Source of the DNA: Sporosarcina sp. FSL K6-2383
Lineage (GTDB): Bacteria; Bacillota; Bacilli; Bacillales_A; Planococcaceae
Direction of reading: 5' to 3'
DNA: 64,000 bases
Assembly (NCBI RefSeq): GCF_038618305.1
Contig: NZ_CP152017.1
Coordinates: 969,501-1,033,500, forward strand
Part shown: positions 11,467 to 21,711 of the stretch, one piece after another
Layout: each line of letters starts with the position of its first letter
How positions within the stretch are numbered: position 1 is the stretch's first letter
The notes under the pieces: model-generated
Seen by the model: only the letters and a program-made list of their open reading frames with translations
Database searches by the model: none
What the model was told of the DNA's origin: nothing
Program-made: the position numbers and the translations under genes

Positions 11467-12882
11467 ATGAATAAAGGACATGTACTTCAAGTAATGGGTC
11501 CGGTTGTTGACGTTAAGTTTGAAAACGGTCAACTTCCTGAGATCTATAACGCATTGAAGGTCCAGATTACTCGTCCAAACACTGAGCCTGAAACGTTGAC
11601 ACTTGAGGTCGCGCTTCACCTTGGGGACGATACTGTACGTACAATTGCAATGTCATCAACAGATGGCCTACAACGTGGTTCAGTCGTAGACGATATGGGT
11701 TCTGCGATTTCAGTTCCAGTAGGTGACGTAACACTAGGACGCGTATTTAACGTACTTGGAGAAATTATTGACCTTGGTGAGGAAATTCCGGCAACAGACC
11801 GTCGCGACCCAATTCACCGTTTAGCTCCAGTATTTGAAAACCTTTCAACAGAAGTTGAAATTCTTGAAACGGGTATAAAAGTTGTTGACTTACTAGCTCC
11901 ATACATCAAAGGTGGTAAAATTGGCCTCTTCGGTGGTGCGGGTGTAGGTAAAACAGTTCTTATCCAAGAATTGATCAACAACATCGCTCAAGAACACGGT
12001 GGTATTTCGGTATTCGCTGGTGTTGGAGAACGTACTCGTGAAGGAAATGACTTGTTCTATGAAATGACGGATTCTGGCGTTATCAACAAAACGGCAATGG
12101 TATTCGGTCAAATGAACGAGCCACCTGGCGCACGTATGCGTGTTGCTCTAACAGGTTTGACAATGGCAGAATATTTCCGTGACGAAAAAGGCGCGGACGT
12201 TCTTCTGTTCATCGATAATATCTTCCGCTTCACACAAGCGGGATCTGAAGTATCGGCACTGCTTGGTCGTATGCCATCAGCGGTCGGTTACCAGCCAACA
12301 CTTGCAACGGAAATGGGTCAGCTTCAAGAGCGTATCACATCGACAAACGTCGGTTCTGTTACATCTATCCAAGCGATCTACGTTCCTGCGGATGACTATA
12401 CGGATCCAGCTCCTGCAACGACGTTTGCTCACCTTGACGCAACGACGAACCTTGAGCGTAAACTTTCTGAAATGGGTATCTACCCAGCGGTTGACCCACT
12501 TGCTTCAACTTCACGCGCACTAAGCCCAAGCATCATTGGCGAAGAGCATTACGAAGTTGCACGTCAAGTACAACAGACGCTTCAGCGTTACCGCGAACTT
12601 CAAGATATCATTGCAATCCTTGGTATGGATGAGCTTGGCGAAGAAGACAAATTGGTAGTAGGACGCGCGCGTCGTATCCAATTCTTCTTGTCACAGAACT
12701 TCCACGTAGCAGAGCAGTTTACAGGACAGAAGGGTTCTTATGTGCCTGTAGCTGAAACTGTTAAAGGCTTCAGTGAAATCCTTGAAGGTCGCTACGATCA
12801 CCTTCCAGAAGATGCATTCCGACTTGTTGGGCGTATCGAGGAAGTTATCGAAAAAGCAAAAGCAATGGGCGTAGAAGTTTAA
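11467..12882 (+). CDS. atpD: ATP synthase F1 subunit beta
   Basis: Catalytic subunit of F1. The 471-residue protein has the P-loop GGAGVGKT at 156-163, the following GERTREGNDL segment with the catalytic glutamate region, and the DDYTDPAPAT segment. RBS GACAGGAGGG precedes the ATG. Its stop codon (12880-12882) is buried in a perfect 16-bp hairpin that begins copy 1 of the three-stem repeat. Confidence 0.97.
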   Translation: MNKGHVLQVMGPVVDVKFENGQLPEIYNALKVQITRPNTEPETLTLEVALHLGDDTVRTIAMSSTDGLQRGSVVDDMGSAISVPVGDVTLGRVFNVLGEIIDLGEEIPATDRRDPIHRLAPVFENLSTEVEILETGIKVVDLLAPYIKGGKIGLFGGAGVGKTVLIQELINNIAQEHGGISVFAGVGERTREGNDLFYEMTDSGVINKTAMVFGQMNEPPGARMRVALTGLTMAEYFRDEKGADVLLFIDNIFRFTQAGSEVSALLGRMPSAVGYQPTLATEMGQLQERITSTNVGSVTSIQAIYVPADDYTDPAPATTFAHLDATTNLERKLSEMGIYPAVDPLASTSRALSPSIIGEEHYEVARQVQQTLQRYRELQDIIAILGMDELGEEDKLVVGRARRIQFFLSQNFHVAEQFTGQKGSYVPVAETVKGFSEILEGRYDHLPEDAFRLVGRIEEVIEKAKAMGVEV

Positions 12883-13004
12883 TTTAAAATAGCAGGTAAC
12901 CCCGCTATTTTAAATTAAAGCCTCCGGCGGATGCGACAGATTTTTCAAGGGAGTTAGTGAGCCCTGCTCGATAAAATCTGCGCCAAATTCGCCAAGGCGA
13001 ATTT
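12878..13004 (+). repeat. Three-stem intergenic element, copy 1 (atpD-atpC)
   Basis: Stem P1: TTTAATTTAAAATAGC (12878-12893) pairs perfectly with GCTATTTTAAATTAAA (12904-12919). Conserved box GCCTCCGGCGGATG at 12920-12933. Stem P2: CAGATTTT (12937-12944) pairs with AAAATCTG (12973-12980) around a variable insert. Stem P3: AAATTCGCC-AA-GGCGAATTT (12985-13004). P1 contains the atpD stop codon, and the atpC ribosome binding site follows P3 closely. Confidence 0.85.
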
Positions 13005-13031
13005 GAATTAAGCGACCAGGAGGGGAAACAA

Positions 13032-13439
13032 ATGAAGACAATTAAAGTCAATATCGTCACTCCCGACGGCCCTGTTTGTGAAACTGAAGCGAATGTAGTC
13101 ATCGCAGTTACTGAAGCAGGCGAAATCGGGATCCTTCCCGGCCACATTGCGATGGTTGCACCACTTCAAATTGGTGCACTTCGTCTGAAGAAGGATGACG
13201 CGACAGAACATATAGCGGTACATGGTGGTTTCCTTGAAGTCCGTCCGGATGTTGTTACTGTCTTGGCACAAAGTGCAGAAATGGCTTCATCTATCGATAT
13301 CGCTCGTGCACAAGCTGCAGCGAAACGTGCGGAAGATGCATTGAGCGCTGAAAAAGATGAAAGTAATTACAAATTGGCGGAACTTGAACTAAAACGTGCC
13401 ATCACTCGTATCAATGTATACGAAACAAGAAAAAAATGA
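13032..13439 (+). CDS. atpC: ATP synthase F1 subunit epsilon
   Basis: Rotor subunit that couples gamma to the c-ring and can inhibit ATP hydrolysis. The 135-residue protein has the N-terminal beta-sandwich (VNIVTPDGPV, GEIGILPGHIAMVAPL) and a C-terminal two-helix region rich in Ala, Glu and Lys. RBS CAGGAGGGGAAA precedes the ATG. Last gene of the ATP synthase operon. Confidence 0.96.
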   Translation: MKTIKVNIVTPDGPVCETEANVVIAVTEAGEIGILPGHIAMVAPLQIGALRLKKDDATEHIAVHGGFLEVRPDVVTVLAQSAEMASSIDIARAQAAAKRAEDALSAEKDESNYKLAELELKRAITRINVYETRKK

Positions 13440-13512
13440 GTTGTTGATGATGGCGGGCAGAGGAATAAGTTTCTTCTGTCCGCCTTTTATCGCGTTTACA
13501 GGAGGCTGAAGT

Positions 13513-20311: not shown

Positions 20312-21148
20312 ATGCTACGCACAATGACAACAGCAACAAACACGTTAAACCAATTACAGCATCAGCTTGATATTATAGGGAATAACCTGTCGAATTCAGC
20401 TACTCATGGCTATAAATCGAGCGATGCAAAATTTCACGAGCTACTCTATCAACAATTCAATAACGATAAAGCTGACACAGCACCGCGTCAATCACCGCTG
20501 GGCATTCGCTATGGATCAGGTGCAGTTCTCGGACAAGCACAGATGAACTGGAAAGTGGGTACATTGCAGTCGACAGAACGTCAACTCGATTTTGCGCTGA
20601 CGGAACCGAAGCAATACTTTAATATTCTTATGCCAGGAGACGGCGGAGAACAAACAGTTTATACGCGACAAGGGAATTTCTATATTTCCCCAATAGCAGA
20701 TGGACAAGGTATGCTTGTTAACGCCGATGGTTATCCTGTTGCCAATAGTGCAGGTCTACCAATTACATTTACAGATGATGTCACAAATTTTACAATGAAC
20801 GCGAGTGGAATGCTTACATTGACACATGCTGATGGTACAGCGGAAACGGTTGAACTGGGCATTACAGTCATGCAACGCCCTAATTTGATGGAACGTCTTT
20901 CGGCTACGAATTTTGGCTTGCCTGGAAATTTAGCTGACCTAGGTGTTACAGAGCAACAAGTGCTAACTGATCTGCAAGGCGAAGCCCGAAACCAAGTAGG
21001 CATTGAAGCAGGGAAACTTGAAGCGTCCAATGTAAACTATGAGAAAGAAATGACAGATCTTATTACTGTTCAACGCTCTTATCAATTCAATGCACGAACG
21101 GTGACATTGGCAGATCAGATGATGGGGCTAATTAACGGTATACGATGA
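20312..21148 (+). CDS. flhP: Flagellar hook-basal body protein FlhP (FlgG-like rod protein)
   Basis: Second FlgG-like rod protein. The N-terminal motif QLDIIGNNLSNSATHGYKS and the C-terminal YEKEMTDLITVQRSYQFNART match the family. Length 278. RBS GAAGGGAG precedes the ATG after the inverted repeat element. The flhO-flhP pair away from the main fla/che operon is the B. subtilis arrangement. Confidence 0.9.
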   Translation: MLRTMTTATNTLNQLQHQLDIIGNNLSNSATHGYKSSDAKFHELLYQQFNNDKADTAPRQSPLGIRYGSGAVLGQAQMNWKVGTLQSTERQLDFALTEPKQYFNILMPGDGGEQTVYTRQGNFYISPIADGQGMLVNADGYPVANSAGLPITFTDDVTNFTMNASGMLTLTHADGTAETVELGITVMQRPNLMERLSATNFGLPGNLADLGVTEQQVLTDLQGEARNQVGIEAGKLEASNVNYEKEMTDLITVQRSYQFNARTVTLADQMMGLINGIR

Positions 21149-21171
21149 AGTTTCTGTAGGGAGCACTGAAT

Positions 21172-21501
21172 ATGACAGATGAAAAACGAAATAAGGTAGA
21201 CGAGCTAGAGACGCCGACGCGGACTCGGGCAACCCGAACACAACCACTACGCAATGAGCAAAGGCAGCGTAAGCGTAACAGCGAAAGTGAGCAAGCTACA
21301 CCTAAAAATCAGTTTTGGGTGCAAATCCGCTTGTTACCAATTTGGCTACGTGTCGTACTCGTCTTGCTGCTACTTCTAGGCGTGGCTATATTGGGTGCGA
21401 CTATTGGCTACGGCTATATAGGGGACGGCCAACCCGCTGATGTTCTCAAAAAAGAGACATGGACCCATATACTGGATATTTTGAATGGAAAAGAGTCGTA
21501 A
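21172..21501 (+). CDS. EpuA-like small membrane protein (often named DNA-directed RNA polymerase subunit beta)
   Basis: A 109-residue protein with a charged, Arg/Glu-rich N-terminal half (about 1-45), one strongly hydrophobic helix near residues 58-80 and the short tail QPADVLKKETWTHILDIL. This pattern fits the EpuA family, commonly mislabelled as an RNA polymerase beta subunit; it bears no resemblance to RpoB. It starts 23 bases after flhP and is probably in the same transcript. Function unknown. Confidence 0.75.
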   Translation: MTDEKRNKVDELETPTRTRATRTQPLRNEQRQRKRNSESEQATPKNQFWVQIRLLPIWLRVVLVLLLLLGVAILGATIGYGYIGDGQPADVLKKETWTHILDILNGKES

Positions 21502-21518
21502 AGGCTCTTTCGCTTTTA
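21489..21518 (+). terminator. Weak terminator after the EpuA-like gene
   Basis: AAAGAGTC and GGCTCTTT pair around GTAAA, followed by CGCTTTT; the stop codon lies in the loop. The tail touches repeat copy 5. Confidence 0.45.
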
Positions 21519-21711
21519 TCTGAATTCAGCAGAATACCAGCACTTCTATAAGTGGCTGGATGAATGCAAAAAATTTTACTGTTCAGTGGGAGTCGAAACT
21601 CCAGCTGAACTCAGATAAAGCCTCCGGCGGATGTCACGGGTTTTTTAAGGGAGACTTTTCGAGCTCGCACGAAAAAATCCGGACGCAATGACGCCAAGGC
21701 ATGATTGATAA
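21515..21711 (+). repeat. Three-stem intergenic element, copy 5 (upstream of fabZ)
   Basis: P1: TTTATCTGAATTCAG (21515-21529) and CTGAACTCAGATAAA (21605-21619), one mismatch, with a 75-bp loop. Box GCCTCCGGCGGATG (21620-21633). P2: CGGGTTTTTT (21637-21646) and AAAAAATCCG (21672-21681), one G-U pair, enclosing TTTTCGAGCTCGCACGAAAA. P3: CAATGACGCC-AA-GGCATGATTG (21686-21707), the least perfect P3 of the set. Confidence 0.8.

Follow-up and report, generated by a model that had tools for sequence, protein, structure and literature searches.

Exact ends, paired targets and covarying stems of a mobile intergenic repeat in Sporosarcina

Why should a short intergenic repeat keep three stems while their sequence changes? 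The question is raised by a stretch of the genome of Sporosarcina sp. FSL K6-2383 (contig NZ_CP152017.1, positions 969,501 to 1,033,500), called the window below, whose 64,000 nucleotides hold five copies of an element composed of three stems, P1, P2 and P3, and a conserved box, GCCTCCGGCGGATG. The box is expected 0.11 times in the window by chance, and none of 100 dinucleotide shuffles reaches five. The order is the same in every window copy: P1 adjoins the box and is followed by P2 and then by P3 with its GCC-RA-GGC centre. About 100 copies of the element are present in the 3.67 Mb host genome (G000). An earlier note on the window had ascribed the stems to selection on RNA or cruciform structure. 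The comparisons described here show that a mobile element lies behind the repeats. It is probable that this element is non-autonomous DNA resembling the palindrome-associated transposable elements (PATEs), and that it works like an IS200/IS605-type single-strand transposon without the genes of one.

Empty sites, exact ends and guide pairing

Occupied and empty sites were compared between the host genome and its relatives, among them G089, which is about 84-96% identical to it in matched stretches. In eleven base-resolved pairs (Table 1) the left flank joined to the right flank gives the empty site, single substitutions allowed, with no base duplicated and none lost. The copies are inserted directly 3' of TTTAA, TTTAT, GTTAT, TTTCA or TCTAA, of which TTTAA and TTTAT dominate. 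For example, CCATTTAA runs directly into AATAATCGC in the host genome and is separated from it by a copy in G089, while GTTTGTTTAT followed by GTAAGG is empty in G089 and occupied in the host. The empty site that corresponds to copy 1 reads GTTTAA followed by TAAAAGGGACC in the relative G082. The 3' end of the element is fixed at TTGAT: the last base is T at a frequency of 0.95 in 166 copies with TTGA, then comes a weak preference for T (0.61), and then the flank. The repeats are thus mobile and have exact ends. The two ends differ on reading and the target is not duplicated, which is not the pattern of a classical DDE miniature inverted-repeat transposable element (MITE), with its terminal inverted repeats and target duplication.

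Of 100 host copies, 39 were matched in C1/C2 of G089. Many of the 23 matches consisting of a single high-scoring segment pair align element to element; only long ones were used, and 15 were added later. About nine more pairs are too diverged to resolve, and 1438326 and 3010041 look like deletions in G089. Within the window, copies 2, 4 and 5 are absent from G089, where 42 unrelated bases stand in the place of copy 5. G089 has copy 1 too, though with a different P1, and the site of copy 3 holds a very different copy. As a separate observation, two copies at 2476950 and 2477080 of the host genome stand head to tail, joined as ..TTTGAT followed by TTTAATTC.., which resembles a tandem duplication or the junction of an inserted circle.

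In the outer 5 bp of P1, the host target pairs with the 4-5 nucleotides that directly precede the box. P1 thus begins with five bases of host DNA, and the nucleotides opposite them would act as a guide. The arm of P1 was located from its inner bases alone, so that the outer five provide an independent test, which covers the 172 of 271 boxes with a detectable P1. Watson-Crick pairs are found at 777 of 860 guide-target positions, against 547±10 when the guides are permuted among the copies; five bases further out, only 303 of 860 positions pair. The guide foot is mostly TTAAA, GTTAA or ATAAA. The 52 copies with uncommon guides give 221 pairs out of 260, against 122±6 for permuted guides with a maximum of 143 in 5000 permutations, and 24 of them pair with the target over all five bases and 18 over four. 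The host loci alone give 99 of 115, against 52±5. At 3026061 a copy with the guide TGAAA occupies TTTCA, and the empty allele in G089 is TTTCT.

Judged from these sequences, guide-directed targeting is favoured, and palindrome correction after insertion might have produced the matching. It is possible, if somewhat doubtful, that a natural re-programming of DNA-guided transposition has taken place, in which guide mutations would have sent copies of one family, even within one genome, to differing matching pentamers. Such re-programming has been engineered for the guide of IS608 (PMC5934647), and the varied natural guides look like its counterpart. They are also a large natural collection of guide-target pairs on which site choice by single-strand transposons could be tested.

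The orientation of the copies is related to replication. It was tested at 100 listed places in each of two genomes: in the host, 92 exact boxes and 8 with one mismatch (dnaA at 466099, terminus assumed at 2.5 Mb), and in G014, 100 of 106 (dnaA at 4495943, split assumed at 2.25 Mb). The two replichores of the host carry 35 plus and 15 minus copies and 9 plus and 41 minus copies, respectively (P = 2.5e-7, or 2.3e-6 with the terminus placed at 2.3 Mb); the corresponding numbers in G014 are 30 and 15 and 11 and 44 (P = 4e-6). By the geometry of the fork, the strand with the target pentamer is the lagging-strand template for about three quarters of the copies in both genomes. In the host genome the bias holds between convergent or divergent genes (27 vs 11), and between tandem genes 43 of 53 copies run with the genes.

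Stem structure and the origin of the covariation

When folded as single-stranded DNA, copy 1 forms P1, a GCC-TCC-GGC mini-hairpin of three pairs in the box, P2 and P3 (z -6.6; none of 200 shuffles as good). The folds of copy 4 (z -5.5) and of the loci L138 and L098 also beat their shuffles. In the best folds of L138, L098 and copy 4 the box is paired differently from copy 1; the best fold of L138 pairs it with P3, and both box and P3 are GCC..GGC palindromes. The dinucleotide shuffles exclude an effect of composition, both for the box and for the folds made. A small open reading frame in P2 was considered and dropped, as it is not conserved on reading.

Covariation was tested in the spirit of R-scape by a G-test with average-product correction and 200 null alignments, in which the substitutions are replayed on a FastTree tree. 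The alignment consists of 111 short copies out of 215 parsed, taken from multiple genomes, mostly drawn by the exact box and including orthologues. P1 lies outside the alignment, so that the result covers P2 and P3. Watson-Crick pairs occupy 3049 of 3251 ungapped stem cells. Three of 4005 column pairs are significant (E < 0.05), and all three belong to the 30 proposed stem pairs; two further pairs in P2 are close to the threshold (E 0.07 and 0.2), and the remaining 25 are not significant. The covariation that the earlier note had read from the window copies therefore holds in this multi-genome set for P2 and P3. P2 also has a recurrent RGGAG bulge, which several copies lack. A P1 hairpin is present in each copy, as had been described, but its sequence is not free: the P1 sequences sort into a few families, and the outermost five bases of the 5' arm belong to the host target.

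The compensatory changes might have a mutational origin. Template switching at replication would correct imperfect palindromes, or copies would overwrite each other by gene conversion. At the atpD-atpC site of the nearest relative, box, P2 and P3 are identical to those of copy 1, and P1 is wholly different yet again self-complementary. Two pairs of P2 have changed jointly at 3056731, giving a different allele that is common in the family. At the site of copy 3 the bodies of the two copies differ strongly, though their surroundings match at about 89%. The rewritten P1 and the paired switches suggest that part of the covariation is probably due to correction or gene conversion. As the full explanation of the stems, however, a mutational origin is unlikely: both the unpaired base of P2 and the GCC-RA-GGC centre are seen again and again among the copies; an uncommon target is matched by an uncommon guide, even though the target belongs to the host; and the empty and occupied alleles at 3026061 differ.

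A probable single-strand mechanism and its competitors

A description of how the element probably moves can be given in some detail. On the top strand, the left end would consist of the target pentamer (mostly TTTAA or TTTAT), P1, and the guide of 4-5 nucleotides at the 5' foot of the mini-hairpin in the box. The right end would be P3, where the outer stem of the GCC-RA-GGC hairpin joins the terminal ..TTGAT cleavage site with a guide of its own. Both hairpins would be bound by a transposase acting in trans, most probably an HUH enzyme of the Y1 type, which would cut after the target and after TTGAT. The single strand would then enter next to a new site complementary to the guide, for the most part on the lagging-strand template. 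P2 would serve as a variable middle in which other hairpin modules, Bacillaceae-1 among them, can nest.

The features described for IS608 match those of the element (PMC6006769, PMC5934647). In IS608 and ISDra2, insertion takes place 3' of a short target, a guide 5' of the hairpin foot pairs with the target, an equivalent guide and cleavage site are present at the right end, and the lagging strand is preferred (same sources). The element differs from them in having neither tnpA nor tnpB and in a pentamer target rather than TTAC, and its cleavage is predicted only. The PATEs of Haloquadratum are likewise short, lack terminal inverted repeats, have palindromes near both ends and a terminal oligonucleotide, do not duplicate the target and are often hit by other small nested elements (PMC3119063). 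The present element is bacterial, has a long P1 that pairs the target side with the guide side, and shows varied natural guides and no IS605-type partner that could be found.

Several observations weigh against this mechanism, the enzyme and the small end hairpins being its weak points. The hairpin cores amount to 3 bp in the box and to GCC-RA-GGC in P3, compared with the hairpins of about 20-25 nucleotides described for the family, and the mini-hairpin appears in the best fold of copy 1 alone among the four folded, being absent from those of L138, L098 and copy 4. The P1 stem between target and guide is longer than in IS608. By the rule used, 99 of the 271 boxes have no P1 arm and dropped out of the guide test. 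In tandem pairs of lagging-strand genes the host copies split 4 to 4, so that gene direction matters too. In P3 alone, 24 A·C events were counted against 7 G·T events, an excess that a top-strand hairpin does not predict. No transposase with the ends of the element was found in the sequence examined. No box lies within about 1.5 kb of a Y1 gene at any of 31 loci (29 from the genus and two overlapping loci of the host's broken copy), and a P3 at 420-4000 nucleotides, where it could flank a gene together with the box, accompanies none of the 306 boxes; copies that carry a gene were thus not seen. The four copy-rich genomes searched have no clearly intact Y1 gene (G261, with 97 copies, lay outside this search).

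Y1 matches (PF01797) are present in 46 of 61 genomes of the genus, many of them in frames of about 190-260 amino acids. In the copy-rich genomes they are reduced to one broken copy in the host, one weak match with a stop in G089 and partial matches in G014, with none in G082. A script for reading the ends at 14 Y1 loci recognised an open reading frame in only two of them, which is uninformative about the ends. As the copy-rich genomes searched have no clearly intact Y1 transposase, the enzyme may not be a recognised one. Because no Y1 element with matching ends was found, the element is described as working like the IS200/IS605 type, rather than as a proven member. A lead of another kind is the one TnpB match of the host genome (an open frame; 1680656-1683862, L191), which has a 3' end, CTCCCACCTCT..GTTCAA, similar to the extra hairpin in the long-P1 copies 4 and 5.

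A different mobile mechanism could be responsible: the element may be a bcr1-like repeat moved by a process akin to site-specific recombination, or its movement may depend on an IS91/Helitron-type enzyme or on a retro-type or bridge-RNA system. Insertion without target duplication is not confined to Y1 enzymes, and none of the 31 Y1 loci has the ends of the element. The bcr1 repeats of the Bacillus cereus group, small, intergenic and MITE-like, are alike in size class (100-400 bp), in copy number (up to 130) and in their association with TTTAT (PMC6542083, PMC3446304); they belong to another host group, and the likeness is one of description. The element may reasonably be regarded as analogous to, but different from, the bcr repeats. 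What makes another mechanism distinctly unlikely is the combination of a guide at the 5' foot of the end hairpin, the equivalent layout at P3 and the lagging-strand bias, which is the IS200/IS605 pattern as far as the sources cited above describe it.

Alternatively, the stems might be kept for a role of the RNA in untranslated regions or operons (processing, stability or regulation), with the spread of the copies as a by-product. The significant covariation and the recurrent bulge in P2 would fit such a role, as would the copy between atpD and atpC and the tandem gene pairs, which make up 53 of 91 classified contexts and contain the mostly co-directional copies mentioned above. About half of the bcr repeats are transcribed in B. 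cereus (50.9% and 40.0% in two strains; PMC3446304). Stems kept as RNA should tolerate G·U far better than A·C, however, and G·U is not favoured (47 vs 68 cells; 34 vs 52 parsimony events; 7 vs 24 events in P3 alone, the reverse of what a top-strand RNA would show), which argues against selection at the level of RNA. The bulge is missing from some copies, and stems are lost in orthologous ones: P3 is broken at 1477371 in the host, and P1 is largely deleted at 2703991 in G089. The atpD-atpC gap has no element in 17 of the 30 genomes examined there (the best 30 of 61, the host included), and orientation follows the replichore even where genes converge or diverge. A structured RNA is therefore a very unlikely explanation, and the element is probably not mainly an RNA, though an RNA role may exist in single places. 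The precise empty sites, the lack of target duplication, the guide-target pairing and the replichore-linked orientation together point to stems that are single-stranded DNA hairpins used for mobility. Of the selection on RNA or cruciform structure proposed earlier, the DNA side is upheld and the RNA side is not. That a covarying, RNA-like repeat with three stems can be explained as DNA mobility machinery is a caution for covariance-based discovery of RNAs.

The least credible explanation is a repetitive extragenic palindrome (REP) made by a domesticated TnpA-REP (REP-associated tyrosine transposase, RAYT): REPs are guide-plus-hairpin sequences (PMC6006769) and the length of many Y1 frames of the genus would suit a RAYT, a label guessed from length, but no box lies near the fetched Y1 genes, G082 has 64 copies by an 18-mer scan and no Y1 match, and the foot is mostly TTAAA, GTTAA or ATAAA, not GTAG.

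Copies in the window, nested modules and spread

The window copies were placed by the earlier note between core genes, with one of them inverted, and both statements are borne out (Table 1). The neighbouring genes are atpD and atpC, an EPSP-synthase-family (MurA-type) gene, spoIIID, mbl, two flagellar rod genes, epuA and a FabA-domain (fabZ-type) gene.

Table 1. Coordinates of the element copies, their targets and nested modules (window positions, unless marked as host genome)
Feature	Position	Strand	Remarks
Copy 1, target pentamer TTTAA	12878..12882	+	Overlaps atpD stop codon; outer 5 bp of P1, paired with guide TTAAA
Copy 1, element (P1, box, P2, P3)	12883..13007	+	Between atpD and atpC; box 12920-12933
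Copy 2, target pentamer TTTAA	13832..13836	+	Read from sequence; G089 site without element
Copy 2, element	13837..14029	+	Upstream of MurA-type gene; box GCATCCGGCGGATG (1 mismatch) 13874-13887; two-hairpin insert in P2 loop
Copy 3, likely target pentamer TTTAT	17891..17895	+	In TTTATTTATTTT run 3' of spoIIID; from sequence only, without empty site
Copy 3, element	17896..18075	+	Between spoIIID and mbl; box 17928-17941
Bacillaceae-1 RNA module (RF01690) in copy 3 P2	17959..18025	+	69.8 bits (gathering score 35)
Copy 4, element, inverted	20093..20283	-	Between two flagellar rod genes; box 20181-20168; long P1 with extra hairpins
Copy 4, target ..CTTAA	20284-20288	-	Same site in G089 without element
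Copy 5, target pentamer TTTAT	21515..21519	+	T-run after epuA; read from sequence
Copy 5, element	21520..21709	+	Upstream of fabZ-type gene; box 21620-21633; long P1
Two-hairpin module	~13916-13984		Also L085, L088, L170
Base-resolved empty/occupied pairs	960518, G089 copy opposite 995021, 1277605, 1299379, 1516445, 1189251, 3026061, 3059686		Host-genome coordinates
Base-resolved pairs, continued			L094/L008, L134/L081, atpD-atpC L204/L197

Nesting within P2, suspected from the variable inserts of the window copies, is found in copies 2 and 3, and the P1 loops of copies 4 and 5 also hold inserts. The module in copy 3 is a full match to the catalogued Bacillaceae-1 RNA, yet it is one optional module and not the whole element. 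It is the only Rfam match of the window at gathering score; when copies 1 and 2 were scanned by E-value, all matches stayed far below that score and were judged to be due to chance. The host genome has 68 Bacillaceae-1 matches, 67 of them above the cut-off. Among the best 30 of the 68, 23 lie strictly inside copies of the element, 3 are adjacent to a box and 4 stand alone. The module takes one of three places, the P2 loop, the sequence 5' of the box or the position otherwise held by the box hairpin, and at 1454505, 2589417 and 2626399 it is present in one of two relatives only. In this genome, the catalogued RNA is thus recast as mostly a passenger module of a mobile element. The two-hairpin module (AATCGAAC..GTTCGATT plus ATTTCTGC..GCAGAAAT) is found in P2 loops in either orientation and also inside the loops of Bacillaceae-1; at 1315524 it is present in the host genome and not in G089.

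The exact box was listed 92 times in the host genome (43 plus, 49 minus) and counted 99 times in another run (43 plus, 56 minus). The 13-mer of the box with at most one mismatch occurs 140 times, against once for the reversed control. Boxes lie outside open reading frames of at least 100 amino acids in 95 of 100 cases in the host genome. In all the sequence gathered, P3 is found at most 420 nucleotides from the box for 252 of 306 boxes; 53 have none, and one lies at an edge. An 18-mer of the element is present in 91 of 261 genomes of the order and in 10 of 19 genera; copy number per genome ranges from 0 to 97, and the distribution is patchy, with large differences inside one genus. Among the matches listed are Sporosarcina, Lysinibacillus, Psychrobacillus, Metasolibacillus, Solibacillus, Rummeliibacillus, Filibacter, Siminovitchia, Niallia and two Bacillus species. 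A host from another phylum, 'Arthrobacter beigongshangensis' REN13, was rejected: the loci seen have 41-45% G+C and one contig is that of G089, from the same genus, so that the record (L085, L098, L101 and other NZ_JADHDX loci) is probably misnamed. One 161-base copy had no match in plasmid and phage collections in a distant-mode search. No description of this element family was found in the open-access literature, which is not proof of novelty.

Other repeats are present in the same region. A 203-bp insertion with a GATTGGAGTGGAGGGCGGCGACTCC core, located just upstream of atpD (window ~11232-11436) and absent in G089, looks like a member of another repeat family. Intergenic arrays of short direct repeats (window ~31721-32212 and ~17436, corresponding to 1001221 and 986936 of the host genome; also 912168, 961452 and 974918) differ from their orthologous counterparts in G089 in sequence, or are present in only one of the two genomes. 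The gap upstream of mbl, which holds copy 3 here, contains a different hairpin repeat in L225, L226, L227, L229 and L231, and is possibly a hotspot for repeats.

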